64,000 bases of DNA from Rhodanobacter panaciterrae (GCF_014651895.1 NZ_BMXT01000001.1:1364001-1428000), one strand, 5' to 3'. Shown: positions 36,902 through 42,163, numbered from the stretch's first letter. Program-made: numbers and translations. Notes: generated by a model from the sequence alone, not told the origin.

Positions 36902-37513
36902 ATGAAGCTTTACTACGTGCCCGGTACCTGTGCCCTAGCCGACCATATCGTGCTGGAGTGGATCGGCCAGCCTTACGAGCTCGAGGAAGTACCTCGTGCC
37001 GAGCTGCGCTCGCCGGAGTATCTGAAGCTCAATCCGGATGGTGTGGTACCGACCCTGGTCGACGACGATGGCTGGGTGTTGACCGAGAACATCGCCATCC
37101 TCAACTACCTGGCCGATCGTTTTCCGGTTGCCCGGCTTGGCGGCAACGGTACGCCGCGCGGACGCGCTGAAGTCAACCGCTGGCTGGGCTTTCTCAACGC
37201 CGACGTGCATCCGGCGTTCAAGCCGCTGTTCCGGCCCGAGCGATTCATTGCCGACCCCGCCCAGCACACCGGACTGCAGGCCACTGCAAAGACAAAGCTG
37301 CGCGGCTATTTCGAGCGATTGGATGGCCAGCTGGCAGGCCGGGACTGGCTCACCGGCACACGTTCGCTCGCCGATCCGTACTTGTTCGTGGTGCAGCGCT
37401 GGGCCAAGGCGAAAGCCGTCGACCTGAACGGGCTCGATCATCTGGAACGCTTTGTCCAGCGCATGCACGCCGATACCGGCGCCATCGCAGCCATGCGTGC
37501 CGAGGGTATCTGA
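36902..37513 (+). CDS. Glutathione S-transferase (beta-class)
   Basis: A protein of 203 residues starting MKLYYVPGTCALADHIVLEW, with GGAG upstream. Cys10 is in the position used by beta-class bacterial transferases. The glutathione-binding cis-Pro site is PDGVVPTLVDDDG, with LTENIAILNYLAD after it. The helical C-terminal domain includes LTGTRSLADPYLFVVQRW. It conjugates glutathione to electrophiles or acts on mixed disulfides. It lies 57 bases after terC on the same strand and may be co-transcribed. It converges, seven bases apart, with the fap-like operon end. Confidence 0.94.
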   Translation: MKLYYVPGTCALADHIVLEWIGQPYELEEVPRAELRSPEYLKLNPDGVVPTLVDDDGWVLTENIAILNYLADRFPVARLGGNGTPRGRAEVNRWLGFLNADVHPAFKPLFRPERFIADPAQHTGLQATAKTKLRGYFERLDGQLAGRDWLTGTRSLADPYLFVVQRWAKAKAVDLNGLDHLERFVQRMHADTGAIAAMRAEGI

Positions 37514-37520
37514 GCGACCG

Positions 37521-38933
37521 CTAGTACATCGTCGGCACTCTGACCGTCACGGTGGCATCGGGCGTATCGCGCGTCACTCCCACACCAAGCGTGAAGTTCA
37601 TGCTGCGCTTGTCGCTGAATCGATAGGAGCCGCCGATCAGCAAGGTGCCCAGCACGCTCTTGGCCGAGCCAGCCACAGTCTTGCCGTTTTGCTTGGTGAT
37701 GCCGACAAAGCTCTGGTCATAGCCGATGCTGATCGATGCCTTCTCATTGAGCGCGAGCCCCATGCCGAGGCTGGCATCAACGATGTCGCCCACCTGCACC
37801 GTACCCAGCGGCTCCTTGCCCCCGAGCAGCACGGTGCGGCTGACGTCGTGACGCGGGAAGTTGTGCAGGTAACTCACGTTGCCGAAGAACACCACCGGAT
37901 CGGAGGGATACAACCAGGTCACACCCGGCTGCAGCGAGTAGAAGCCCGAACCGGTCGGAAGTTGCAGCGGCAGCCCGGTGCCGGTCGCATTCTCCACGCA
38001 GCGGGTGACGCAATCGGTGGTGACCTCGAAAGGATCCCTGCCGGTGCGCGACTTGAAACGTAGCCAGCCTATGTAATACGGCTTGTCTGCACCACCGTCG
38101 TTGATCTGGTAACGGGCGGTGGCCTCCACGTCGCCGATGCCATGGCCAGCGCTCGTGAAGACCTTGTCCGTGGCACTGCCAGTGAAGATCTCGCGACTGA
38201 TCGTGTCGGTGTGCCCATAGACATACGGTATCCGCAGCTCCATCTCCAGTCGGTTGGTAATGCCGTAGCGCAGCGCGACTGCGCCGGTCTGGGTCGTCGT
38301 CTTCACTTGGCGCGCGTCGATCAGACCGATCAGGATCGCCGGGATCACGGTGTAGCCGATCAAGGCGACCCGGTCGGCGGACGAGTAGCCGAATTGATAG
38401 GACGGCTCCACCACCAGCTTGCCACGCGGCGTCAGTACGCCAGGTTGATTGAAGATCGGGGCGACAGCCGGCGGCCCGCTATCGCGCTCAGGTGCCTGCC
38501 CAACTGTCCGGTCCGGTGGATTGTCGGTCGGCTCCGTATCAACGCTGGCCGCGTCGCCGGCAGGCATGGGCAATGCGGTCGCCATCGAGCCACCTGCCCT
38601 CACGTTGCCCGCGCGTTGCCGGTCGAGCACGTCGAGACCCACGGCGTGCCGCAGTGCTCGATAGTCGGCCTGCTGCGATGCGAGCGCTTGCTTCATCGCC
38701 TCGATCTGCGCGTTCTGGGCAGCCAGCTGGGCGCGCATCTCCTCGATGCGCGCGTCCTGCTTGCTCATGTTCTTTTGAAGTACCGCAGACAGTTCACCCG
38801 AACTCACCGGGTTCGAACTCACCGGGGCTGGATTGACTGGCGCTACCGGATCCTGCGCGCTTGCCACACCACCGAGTAGCACCAGCCCGGCACAGCCGGC
38901 TGAACATCTGCTTCGCCACGATTTCCGGGCCAT
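37521..38933 (-). CDS. Outer membrane beta-barrel with N-terminal coiled coil (FapF-like secretin)
   Basis: A protein of 470 residues from ATG 38933, with AGGAGG seven bases upstream. The signal peptide (1-26) is followed by a periplasmic coiled coil at residues 47-97 (heptads with Leu/Met/Ile, ARIEEMRAQLAAQ). A Pro/Ala linker then leads to a beta-barrel of about 300 residues (PRGKLVVEPSYQFGYSSADRV to the final strand TVTVRVPTMY). This matches FapF of the Pseudomonas functional amyloid system, whose coiled coil gates a secretion barrel. Generic databases may call it a phenol-degradation MetA-like transporter. It is the last gene of a five-gene minus-strand operon with a C39 peptidase. Function by analogy, not tested. 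Confidence 0.75.
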   Translation of the reverse strand: MARKSWRSRCSAGCAGLVLLGGVASAQDPVAPVNPAPVSSNPVSSGELSAVLQKNMSKQDARIEEMRAQLAAQNAQIEAMKQALASQQADYRALRHAVGLDVLDRQRAGNVRAGGSMATALPMPAGDAASVDTEPTDNPPDRTVGQAPERDSGPPAVAPIFNQPGVLTPRGKLVVEPSYQFGYSSADRVALIGYTVIPAILIGLIDARQVKTTTQTGAVALRYGITNRLEMELRIPYVYGHTDTISREIFTGSATDKVFTSAGHGIGDVEATARYQINDGGADKPYYIGWLRFKSRTGRDPFEVTTDCVTRCVENATGTGLPLQLPTGSGFYSLQPGVTWLYPSDPVVFFGNVSYLHNFPRHDVSRTVLLGGKEPLGTVQVGDIVDASLGMGLALNEKASISIGYDQSFVGITKQNGKTVAGSAKSVLGTLLIGGSYRFSDKRSMNFTLGVGVTRDTPDATVTVRVPTMY

Positions 38934-39014
38934 CAAGTTGCCCTCCTGTATCGGGCGTCGTTCAAGTGAGGCGGCGTTTGGCCGGCTATTTGCGCATCGG
39001 CTTCGGATACCTTG

Positions 39015-39584
39015 TCAGTGCCCCAGCGATCCGATCAGGCCAGCCTGCAAACTCTCCTGCAGGCCAAGACTGCGGAACAGGTTCTGGCTGTTCGCGGTGA
39101 CATTGATCGTGGTCAAACTGCGGATGTCCTGATTGTCGAGACTGTTCTGGATCACCGTCGCGGCCGTCGCATGGTCGAACGTCGCCGGATCGACGGTGTT
39201 GTTCGCACCGTTCTGGATGATGTTGACCGTGCCCGTGGCGGCAGCCAGGGCGCTGGCCTGATCCGGCGTCATCCGACCAATGTCAGGAATGTTCACGCTG
39301 GTGCTGGAGACCAGATTGCCGTTGATGTAGACCGCGCGTTCGATGCCGAAGGACGCCAGCAGCCCGTTGCCCATATCGAAACCGCCACGAGTGGTATCCA
39401 GCTGACGATCGCTGACCGCCAACGGCCATGCGCCCATGACCCGCATGCCGTCAGCCGGTATGCGCGGCGATGCAGGCTGTGGCAAAGGTGATGGATCCTG
39501 CGCACTGACCATGCCAGCCCAAGCCATCGACAAGCCCGTCAGCACGCAAAGACATGGGAGCCTGGTACGAAAGGTGTTGCTCAT
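39015..39584 (-). CDS. Secreted protein with double-Gly motif, fap-like operon
   Basis: A protein of 189 residues from ATG 39584 (MSNTFRTRLPCLCVLTGLSMAWAGMVSA, signal peptide). A GTG directly after the upstream stop is an alternative. After a Pro-rich stretch it has QLDTTRGGFD, with a double Gly at 67-68, then GLLASFGIERAVYINGNLVSSTS. It is Asn/Gln-rich at the C-terminus (NIIQNGANNTV, TVIQNSLDNQDIRS). It sits between the C39 peptidase and the barrel, where fapE lies in the fap operon. I do not claim true FapE homology; a search is needed. It may be an extracellular chaperone or fibre subunit. Confidence 0.65.
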   Translation of the reverse strand: MSNTFRTRLPCLCVLTGLSMAWAGMVSAQDPSPLPQPASPRIPADGMRVMGAWPLAVSDRQLDTTRGGFDMGNGLLASFGIERAVYINGNLVSSTSVNIPDIGRMTPDQASALAAATGTVNIIQNGANNTVDPATFDHATAATVIQNSLDNQDIRSLTTINVTANSQNLFRSLGLQESLQAGLIGSLGH

Positions 39585-39596
39585 GACGGCACTCAC

Positions 39597-40304
39597 TCAG
39601 ATATCCCCCGGCCCACGTTTGGGCAGCGTGATATTGCCCAAGCCGGTGCGGTCGATGGCGGAATTGATGGGTGCCATTGGCGCAGCGCGCCAGTCGTCGC
39701 TGCTGTTGAATCTTGCCAATGCACGCCGGTTGTGAATGACGAATACCAGCTGGTTTTTCCATGCCGCATCGAACTGCGCGCGTGGGATCGAACGCGTGCC
39801 GCGGGCGGGGTCGCCCACCAGGACACGACCATCACGCATCCCCTTGATCACCACGAAATGGTGGTAACCCCTTTCGTCGATCAACACGATCGCAGGAAGA
39901 TTTTCCTGCCGCAGTTTTTCCAGCGGTACCTGGAACCCGTCGGCGTCGAAACCATTGGCCTGCAGGAAGCGCTTGATATCGAGCAGCGAGAAGCCTTCCC
40001 GGTTGATTTTCGAGCGGTCGCCGTTGGCATACATCTGCACAAACGCTTCCTGCTCGTCGACCGGATAGCCGTACTGATAGGTCAGCAAGGTCGCCACGGC
40101 GGCGGAGCCGCAGCTGAAATCGTATTTCTGGCGGATCGTGTTCCTGAAGCGAATCTCTTTCAGACTCGTCATGTGCAGGCTGTAACTGCCGCCCTGCACG
40201 CCCGGCAACACGACCGGTGCAGCTGCTGCCAGCTGCATCACGGGGAGCAGGCCGGCAACGAACGTCGCGACCAGCCAGAAAGAGCCATGCCACCGGGAAA
40301 TCAT
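39597..40304 (-). CDS. C39 family cysteine peptidase (FapD-like)
   Basis: A protein of 235 residues from ATG 40304, overlapping the preceding stop (ATGA). The signal peptide is in residues 1-28. The C39 catalytic residues are visible: Cys65 in YDFSCGSAAVATLL, His149 in HHFVVI and Asp165 in VGDPARG. There is no ABC transporter attached, so it is a free-standing periplasmic peptidase like FapD, not a bacteriocin exporter. C39 enzymes cut after double-Gly leaders, and neighbouring secreted proteins have GG motifs. It is needed for the maturation step in fap operons. The last 40 residues are a linker-like tail. Confidence 0.88.
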   Translation of the reverse strand: MISRWHGSFWLVATFVAGLLPVMQLAAAAPVVLPGVQGGSYSLHMTSLKEIRFRNTIRQKYDFSCGSAAVATLLTYQYGYPVDEQEAFVQMYANGDRSKINREGFSLLDIKRFLQANGFDADGFQVPLEKLRQENLPAIVLIDERGYHHFVVIKGMRDGRVLVGDPARGTRSIPRAQFDAAWKNQLVFVIHNRRALARFNSSDDWRAAPMAPINSAIDRTGLGNITLPKRGPGDI

Positions 40305-40705
40305 GGCTGGAACTGCACGTTGACGATGGTGGCATTCTGGATCAGCACGGCGTTGCCGCTGTTCTGGATCACCATCGGCAAACCCATCGCTCCAGTGAAC
40401 GAGCCGGAGCTGATCACATTGGCTCCGTTCACCACATGATCGACGTTGTTGTTGGCCACCGTGCCGTTCAACGTCATGGTTTCGGTGACATCGGTACCAC
40501 CACTGAGTTTCGCCAGCGCTGCGGAATCGATGCTCGGCCCCCATCCCGCGACGCCATTTGGCGGCACAACTTCATGCCTGGACGATAATGACGATGTTGC
40601 CGCTACGTTGGGCAACGGTGCGACGGGCTCTCCGGCCAGCGCATTCCATGTCGTTGCCGTGAGCAACAACGGGATGAGCCAGGACATCGGTCTGACTATT
40701 CGCAT
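40301..40705 (-). CDS. Small secreted protein with LxGG and QNSG motifs, fap-like operon
   Basis: A protein of 134 residues. The signal peptide ends WNALA. It has LAKLSGGTDV (double Gly at 69-70), then NGTVANNNVDHVVNGANVISSGSF and the C-terminal VIQNSGNAVLIQNATIVNVQ. Asn and Gln are high (amyloid-like). A similar QNSG-x-IQ ending is seen in the Gly-rich neighbour. Its stop overlaps the C39 start, so the two are coupled. I cannot name a family, but the operon position matches a FapB/A-like minor subunit. Confidence 0.65.
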   Translation of the reverse strand: MRIVRPMSWLIPLLLTATTWNALAGEPVAPLPNVAATSSLSSRHEVVPPNGVAGWGPSIDSAALAKLSGGTDVTETMTLNGTVANNNVDHVVNGANVISSGSFTGAMGLPMVIQNSGNAVLIQNATIVNVQFQP

Positions 40706-40819
40706 GGTTCTATCTCCCTCGCCGGCGCGGGCAGCGATCTCTGCTTATGCCCGGCAGTCCGGTCGCAACCAACGGAAAACACGGTGGAGCGCCTGGCGCT
40801 CCACCGTGTCTGGCTCCAC

Positions 40820-41782
40820 TTATGGACCAACGTTGAGATTGGCCTGGACGTTCACGCTCTGCTGGATCAGTGAGCCGACGCCACTGTTCTGCGCCATGAC
40901 CGTAACGCCGGCGGCTGCCGCAGCTGCACCTGACATGTTGTTGGACATGTCGAACGTGCCCGCATTCACCGAGTTCGATCCACCGGCGCCACCGGAACCA
41001 CCGGCTCCGGCGATACCTTCGCCACCCGTAGCGGAAGCACCGCTGCCGCCAGCTCCACCCATGCCACCGGTGCTGTCAGCTGCACCACTGCTGCCACCCG
41101 TCGAGGTCGCCGCGCCGCTGCTTGCGGTTGCCGAACCGCTGGTGCCTGCTCCGCCAGCCCACGCACCACCAGTTCCGCCGGTCGCCGTTGCCATGCTGGA
41201 GCCGCGTGAGCGGGCATGCGCGTTACCGTAGTTGTCGCCGCTGCTGTCGCCACCGGCTGCTGCACTGAGTGCGCCGACCTGGCCGCTATCGGCGCCTGAT
41301 CCACCGGCATAGCCGCTGTGCGAATGGGCACTTCCACCGTCACCACCGGATCCGCCACGACCACCATTGGCATTGCCGCCGGATCCGCCACCACCGGATC
41401 CGCCACGACCACCATTGGCATTACCCCAATTGCTGGCGACATTGCCGATGTCGTGTGCACGGATGTCGGTCACGGTGCCATCGAGCCGGCTGATCGCGAC
41501 AGCCCGGCTGCTGTTGAACGAAGACGCGATCGAGGATGTGGCCGTTCCGCCATTGTTGGCGGCCGAACTGCCCTGTCCGTTGGCATAGGCGTCGCCATTG
41601 TTGTTGCGTTGACTCGAATGCGTTGAGCTGTTCGAGTGCGTCGAGCTGTCACTGGTCTGCACTGCAATGGAGTGTCTCTGGGCAGAGGGTCCAGCTCCGC
41701 CAGTCTGCGTGTCATCTGCCAAGGCCGGAAGAGTAAGTCCCAAGCCAACACATATCGCTGTTAAAAGTAGAGTCTTTCGCAT
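40820..41782 (-). CDS. Secreted Gly/Ser/Ala-rich protein, candidate fibre subunit
   Basis: A protein of 320 residues from ATG 41782, with AGGAGA upstream. The signal peptide is MRKTLLLTAICVGLGLTLPALA. The mature part is very rich in Gly, Ser, Ala, Asn and Thr. It starts Ser/His/Asn-rich, then has runs such as GGSGGGGSGG and many GG-rich blocks. The C-terminal 40 residues return to VTVMAQNSGVGSLIQQSVNVQ, related to the ends of the next genes. It is the first gene of the operon. The composition suits a silk- or amyloid-like polymer. It lacks the FapC sequence repeats I would expect, so the fibre may be of a different type. Confidence 0.65.
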   Translation of the reverse strand: MRKTLLLTAICVGLGLTLPALADDTQTGGAGPSAQRHSIAVQTSDSSTHSNSSTHSSQRNNNGDAYANGQGSSAANNGGTATSSIASSFNSSRAVAISRLDGTVTDIRAHDIGNVASNWGNANGGRGGSGGGGSGGNANGGRGGSGGDGGSAHSHSGYAGGSGADSGQVGALSAAAGGDSSGDNYGNAHARSRGSSMATATGGTGGAWAGGAGTSGSATASSGAATSTGGSSGAADSTGGMGGAGGSGASATGGEGIAGAGGSGGAGGSNSVNAGTFDMSNNMSGAAAAAAGVTVMAQNSGVGSLIQQSVNVQANLNVGP

Positions 41783-42163
41783 GTTTGTTCTCCTGGAACG
41801 ATGCGGTGACCCCCCTGTTTGGTCTTTGCCGTAAGGCAAGCAGCTACAGCAATCTTCGCGCCAGCATCGAGAGTTTTTTTCGCTCGCTGTCTATCTGCTG
41901 AAAATTCAATGCATTGGAAAATCCGATAGACAGACATGCGCGACACAAGCCGCATGGCGAAGAGTGGAAACTGCGTCAGCTCCGCAACATGCCGACCTGT
42001 CGCAATCCGCACAACCGACGCGGTAGCGGAGGGATCCGGTGCAGATGCCGGCCCTGCCGCGCTTTGCTGCTACATGTAACAAAAATGATACAGCTGCGTG
42101 GTCGCGTGAACGGCTTGCATCATTCGTGAGGTTTCCCACCACTGATTCGGTCATTTTCCAGGC
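41783..42163. promoter_or_regulatory. Upstream region of the fap-like operon
   Basis: About 380 bases without a gene. It must carry the operon promoter. The arms CTGTCTATC (41887-41895) and GATAGACAG (41925-41933) form a perfect 9-bp inverted repeat around a central palindrome CAATGCATTG (41907-41916). These are candidate operator sites about 105-150 bases upstream of the first ATG. Confidence 0.5.

Follow-up and report, generated by a model that had tools for sequence, protein, structure and literature searches.

A probable surface-fibre secretion operon in Rhodanobacter panaciterrae, placed on a branch that is sister to Fap functional amyloid

Introduction

The Fap functional-amyloid system is encoded by fapABCDEF in Pseudomonas, and also in Rhodanobacter and Stenotrophomonas. 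FapA is dispensable and frequently lost from published operons (PMC3792158, PMC6173800), FapD and FapF have already been placed in larger families (PMC3792158), and fapD-fapF pairs occur in five additional phyla (PMC6173800). The substrate of the C39 peptidase FapD was described as unknown, and canonical C39 sites as lacking in Fap proteins; secretion of FapC is blocked in a FapD active-site mutant, and mass spectrometry found FapE to be the sole canonical Fap protein that is N-terminally processed, over its first ~70 residues (PMC5557850). The present analysis concerns a five-gene operon (g1 to g5) in a stretch of 64,000 nucleotides from Rhodanobacter panaciterrae (GCF_014651895.1 NZ_BMXT01000001.1:1364001-1428000), here called the window, from whose first letter all positions are counted. 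We read it, with a probability of roughly 0.78, as a surface-fibre secretion operon and a sister branch of the Fap system.

Three other described systems share parts with this locus. The Fil system of Acinetobacter (FilB/FilC), a putative pilus system, likewise combines a C39 peptidase with a barrel. The COG4313 outer-membrane channels (PDB 4rl8) have the same barrel fold and PTG motif and are not known to have a FapF-type coiled coil. The C39 peptidases of the PCAT/AMS type (LahT, PDB 6mpz; PCAT1) belong to the protease family of g3 and follow the same rule of hydrophobic -12, -7 and -4 residues before a double glycine; unlike them, g3 is a stand-alone and probably periplasmic enzyme, whose substrates would be delivered via Sec. 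In LahT, positions -4, -7 and -12 are recognised, Thr at -4 is tolerated and the leader is helical from -4 to -11 (PMC6363468). A C39 partner of COG4313 channels is not reported (PMC6173800).

Results and Discussion

Operon organization and homology of g3 and g5

The operon runs on the minus strand from 41782 to 37521, and all five open reading frames (ORFs) are present in the order and at the coordinates that the original prediction had given.

40820..41782, minus strand: g1, presumed major fibre subunit, 320 amino acids
40301..40705, minus strand: g2, FapB-like minor subunit, 134 amino acids, with a Sec signal, a double-glycine leader and one Fap-type repeat
39597..40304, minus strand: g3, FapD-like C39 cysteine peptidase, Sec-exported, 235 amino acids, with C65, H149 and D165 invariant
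39015..39584, minus strand: g4, FapE-like secreted protein, 189 amino acids, so named from its hhalign value of 91% to FapE
37521..38933, minus strand: g5, FapF-like outer-membrane channel, 470 amino acids

Signal peptides were assigned by eye. The ATG of g3 overlaps the stop codon of g2, and g2, g3 and g4 overlap or are closely packed among the relatives (median gaps of -4 and -1 nucleotides); these three genes are therefore probably translationally coupled.

Profile searches identify g3 and g5 as true relatives of FapD and FapF, which are their best matches rather than any unrelated family, as the original prediction had supposed. The peptidase is matched by Pfam Peptidase_C39 (PF03412; 2.7e-22) and by NCBIfam FapD (1.3e-39), and its catalytic Cys, His and Asp are invariant, as expected of FapD. 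The channel is matched by NCBIfam FapF (3.1e-45) and by the FapF crystal sequences (4e-29). Both proteins stay below the curated equivalog cut-offs (135.8 of 330 bits for FapD; 154.7 of 700 bits for FapF), a shortfall which alone decides little, as the 700-bit cut-off is missed by the canonical loci found here too. The predicted coiled-coil-plus-barrel architecture is likewise borne out: in an AlphaFold2 model of g5, with 35 relatives as input, a long coiled-coil helix (residues 45-97) is joined by a disordered linker to a confidently modelled barrel (173-470), in which the C308/C312 pair and the PTG motif are invariant. The best Foldseek matches of this model are all FapF (TMt ~0.8; 0.81 for 5o65), followed by the COG4313 channel 4rl8.

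Relation of g1, g2 and g4 to the Fap fibre proteins

The g4 protein is aligned with FapE across the signal and leader region, and qualifies as a FapE homologue. It is related over its full length to g2 (hhalign 97%), to which the C-terminus of g1 is related in turn (89%), while FapA as negative control remained below 2%. No family was found for g1, g2 or g4 in Pfam, NCBIfam and PHROGs; the sole Pfam or NCBIfam match at E 10 joined g4 to DUF7691 (0.036, under the family cut-off). In g1, a Sec signal is followed by the block SFNSSKAVAISRLDGTV..GN.A.N.GNANGG, then by a core rich in Gly and Ser, and the C-terminus is a degenerate Fap-type repeat (..AAGVTVMAQNSGVGSLIQQSVNVQANLN).

Direct profile comparison does not make FapB or FapC of g1 and g2, and the homology is transitive, via two loci only (L158 and L165), whose g1-type protein has four repeats (e.g. 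NTIKDNAFQHAEGITQVQQNNGSNNAMQQGVAVSAN). A comparison anchored on the motif, where the null was liberal since that motif had also guided the excision of the repeats, was replaced by an unanchored search of 2679 ORFs with a hidden Markov model (HMM) of these repeats. At E <1 only g1-type proteins, g2-type proteins and FapB were retrieved (best FapB 6.6e-8), and the best unrelated ORF had an E of 2.5. By transitive homology only, g1 and g2 are thus assigned to the Fap repeat superfamily. The earlier statement that no FapC-like repeats are seen was nearly right, except that a single degenerate Fap-type repeat closes both g1 and g2 and becomes visible only through intermediate relatives. Because it is these intermediates that join g1 and g2 to the FapB repeats, g1 can be understood as a FapC-like subunit, the linker of which would have turned into a hypervariable polymer, Gly-rich here and Asn/Ser/Asp-rich elsewhere.

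The composition of g1 also permits a different product of the same export machine, namely a Gly-rich polymer resembling silk, or an adhesive coat, in place of cross-beta amyloid; in such a product the end repeat would serve for export or anchoring only. The glycine content of g1 is 18-35% (median 26%), its core differs even in kind (Gly-rich here; long Asn/Ser/Asp repeats, (DNSNNSDNS)n, elsewhere) with only the two ends conserved, and most relatives have a single terminal repeat. Against this stand the relation of that repeat to the FapB repeats via the multi-repeat relatives, and the constant retention of g2, which after leader removal would be mostly repeat. A non-amyloid polymer is considered unlikely, though it deserves serious attention.

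Distribution and phylogenetic placement

Using g3 as query, 80 loci were fetched, and the module is not a chance arrangement, because the whole set of five genes recurs in almost all of them; the conservation of gene neighbourhood, on which the original prediction had been staked, is thereby observed. The set occurs across Rhodanobacteraceae, Burkholderiales and other Gammaproteobacteria. It is colinear in Rhodanobacteraceae and Povalibacter, and a complete colinear module is present in Cupriavidus metallidurans CH34 (NC_007974.2, ~67.0-72.7 kb); in Variovorax, Rhodoferax and Polaromonas g5 is divergent and lies upstream. The usual upstream neighbour in Rhodanobacteraceae is prpC (55 of the loci); from this constancy it seems that the operon was inherited vertically at a fixed site and lost in some lineages.

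When 60 relatives and 369 Gammaproteobacteria were scanned with a FapF profile, the long matches fell into two clearly separated groups, at 307-456 and 111-171 bits, with a weaker tail and none between 171 and 307. Most of the low-scoring loci inspected, which come from many families, contain g2-, g3-, g4- and g5-type genes together with a g1-type gene. In the FapD trees, canonical Fap (support 100/96) and the second branch (98/97) stand on separate sides, and the FapF trees agree (98 and 100); g3 and g5 are not inside the canonical FapD/FapF clade but in its sister clade. In these trees the branch of the window operon is placed as a well-supported sister clade of canonical Fap, which agrees with the new branch proposed at the outset. 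A DCxxxC pair in the barrel marks the window type (14/14, as compared to 0/18 canonical and 0/14 other second-branch loci), and a Gly-rich g1 accompanies it, although at one other second-branch locus (L160) g1 is Gly-rich and the pair is absent.

The operon shares with Fap the order of its FapD, FapE and FapF homologues, Sec export of the peptidase and fibre-like secreted proteins upstream of fapD. It differs in having no FapA, in its separate clade, in the conserved Cys pair of the barrel, and in a short one-repeat g2 and a Gly-rich g1 in place of FapB and FapC. Gene order and these homologues could also belong to an ordinary canonical operon minus fapA, the commonest published variant (PMC3792158). 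That explanation is improbable: two genomes (G015 and G036) each carry both a canonical operon and one of this second branch, the interval of 171-307 bits is empty, the trees put the window type outside the canonical clade, and g1 and g2 are not FapB and FapC by direct comparison.

Double-glycine leaders and candidate protease substrates

The leader cores that a C39 protease would be expected to recognise are found in two of the subunits.

40496..40531, minus strand: double-glycine leader core of g2, IDSAALAKLSGG, residues 59-70, with I at -12, L at -7, L at -4, G at -2 and G at -1
39381..39416, minus strand: double-glycine leader core of g4, VSDRQLDTTRGG, residues 57-68

After the double glycine the chain continues with TDVTE in g2 and with FDMGN in g4. 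A GG-motif protein had been predicted, and g4 is indeed one, but there are two such proteins and not one. As raw counts that ignore shared ancestry among loci, as do those for promoters and hairpins below, L at -7 with GG at -2/-1 downstream of the Sec signal was found at 77/78 loci in g2 and 80/80 in g4. Position -12 is mostly hydrophobic, chiefly V or I; position -4 is not always so, being T in g4 of the window. Both proteins follow the rule of hydrophobic -12/-7/-4 with G-2/G-1 for C39 substrates, and a double-glycine leader sought in g1 was found in 0/79 relatives. The RGG of g4 is kept throughout the branch (12/12 further loci).

In place of the GG of the window type, canonical FapE ends its leader in RG[R/K]: [ILV] at -12, [LM] at -7, a mostly hydrophobic -4, R at -3, G at -2 and [RK] at -1 (18/18), the candidate site being IPDPELNTLRGR (ending in RGR), followed by YTIG. 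A loose form of the pattern was detected in 17/18 FapE, 0/38 FapA/B/C and 47/981 background ORFs. Two subunits thus have clean C39 sites that align with a degenerate form in canonical FapE, which supplies a candidate substrate of FapD; we infer cleavage of g4/FapE by g3/FapD, and in this branch of g2 as well. The AlphaFold2 model of g2 has no fold (predicted local distance difference test 62, predicted template-modelling score 0.20), which is what a secretion substrate kept unfolded should give; within its low overall confidence, residues 61-68 form a helix that corresponds to leader positions -10 to -3.

A C39 protease with genuine double-glycine leaders is typical for bacteriocin export, and a double-glycine protease (6mpz) heads the PDB matches of g3, so that the module might export free non-fibre peptides of a bacteriocin-like or signalling kind. 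This is highly improbable, as neither an ATP-binding cassette transporter nor an immunity-like gene is among the five, the substrates bear Sec-like signals, homology is of the FapE/FapB type with a FapF channel, and a large low-complexity subunit is always present. A Fil-type pilus as in Acinetobacter is scarcely credible, since the match of g3 to the FilB model (5.3e-37) is offset by that of g5 to FilC (1.1e-9), far weaker than to FapF, by FilA/E/F models that match none of the five proteins, and by a Fil locus that has FilA/E/F and where relatives of g1, g2 and g4 were not found; a targeted search of open-licence papers for the Fil system returned nothing.

Some observations weigh against the surface-fibre reading itself. 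Direct hhalign comparisons of g2 with FapB (23%) and of g1 with FapC (~0) are not significant, the published Fap repeat GN-X-G-N-X2-AG-X2-NQQ-X-N is not in g1, which is largely low complexity, and no fapA gene is in the operon. Beyond the window-type group the GG of the g2 leader is often missing, and cleavage of g2 may therefore not be general across the branch. In the open-licence papers searched, no experiment on any branch member was found. No description of the g1-g5 gene set was found there either, whether under FapD with double-glycine leaders or under Fap with Gly-rich proteins or Cupriavidus.

Control elements

Three candidate control elements lie on the operon strand.

41848..41863, minus strand: sigma-54 (-24/-12) promoter-like site, TGGCGCGAAGATTGCT, 65 nucleotides before the g1 ATG
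42075..42092, minus strand: palindrome TGTATC-N6-GTTACA, candidate enhancer-binding-protein site, ~210 nucleotides upstream of the -24 element
40777..40811, minus strand: hairpin 8 nucleotides after the g1 stop, with a 16-bp stem, -29.6 kcal/mol and a short U tract

The -24/-12 site is present upstream of g1 in 73/77 relatives as compared to 2.6% of random windows, and a sigma-54-like site also precedes most canonical fapA genes of Rhodanobacter and related genomes. The palindrome (TGTAWC-N6-GTTACA) occurs at 25/78 loci, in some of the Rhodanobacteraceae and ~300 nucleotides before g1, always with a gap of 6 nucleotides (background 1.1%). Since fapA of P. fluorescens is driven by BrfA, an enhancer-binding protein that senses cyclic di-GMP (PMC13101488), a BrfA-like activator is likely, by analogy, at the window operon. 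A sigma-70 promoter scan found no promoter, and a strict intrinsic-terminator scan found no terminator on the operon strand.

A hairpin of >=10 bp follows g1 at 52/54 Rhodanobacteraceae and 11/22 Burkholderiales loci, against 3% of shuffles. Other second-branch g1 genes have one of >=9 bp in 12/12 cases, and after canonical fapC 10 bp is reached in 7/15; the hairpin is stronger and more constant here than in Fap. The scant U tract suggests a role as mRNA stabiliser or as partial terminator, either of which would keep g1 in excess. Together with the promoter-like site it points to regulated expression with surplus g1.

Proposed mechanism

Homologies, clade, leaders, promoter-like site, hairpin and conservation were computed here; from them we infer secretion, cleavage, fibre formation, amyloid state and stoichiometry. 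A sigma-54 activator would switch on transcription, and the hairpin would hold g1 mRNA in excess over g2-g5. All five proteins would cross the inner membrane via Sec, g1, g2 and g4 being kept unfolded in the periplasm, where g3 would remove the leaders of g2 and g4 after GG and so license them for export or nucleation. The g5 barrel would provide the outer-membrane route for g1, g2 and g4, with its periplasmic coiled coil trimerising and gating the barrel. Outside the cell, g2 with its one Fap-type repeat would nucleate or cap, and g1 would polymerise through its terminal repeat, displaying the long Gly-rich spacer.

More tentatively, and with some doubt, the branch may represent a widespread second Fap-type machine, which would export surface polymers in a modular way and would not be an amyloid system of the classical kind. 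Cleavage of the leaders of two minor subunits by a stand-alone periplasmic C39 protease would be its assembly trigger, and the major subunit would combine a short conserved amyloid-type end with evolvable low-complexity cargo, Gly-rich in one clade and Asn/Ser/Asp-rich in others. The findings reduce the question of the FapD substrate to a simple cleavage assay, and suggest that Fap-type export extends beyond the operon known from Pseudomonas and can carry very different polymers, which is of relevance to biofilm biology and engineered protein materials. The genomes G015 and G036 are useful for comparing both systems within one cell.

Flanking genes and minor observations

The window genome (G000, 3.46 Mb) is a Rhodanobacter, as are its nearest relatives. 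On one side of the operon lies prpC (43383-42214), on the other a glutathione-transferase-like gene (36902-37513); the names of both were assigned from sequence. At L098 (genome G030) only a truncated FapF-like fragment of 191 amino acids adjoins prpC, apparently a decayed operon copy at the same site. At L171-L175, genes for a C39 peptidase and a FapF-like barrel again lie next to each other, in a third set that has diverged still further (~110 bits or less with the FapF profile) and in which g1 and g2 partners were not recognisable. Two g1-type genes each are present at the second-branch loci L156 (2504-4123), L159 (9908-12876) and L165 (1758-6144), the second copy of L165 being located behind g4. 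At L049 (5403-6947), g1 and g2 form a single fused ORF of 514 amino acids, either a natural fusion or a sequencing error, and at the Acinetobacter locus L177 (3640-4479) the FilB-like C39 gene is split into two ORFs.

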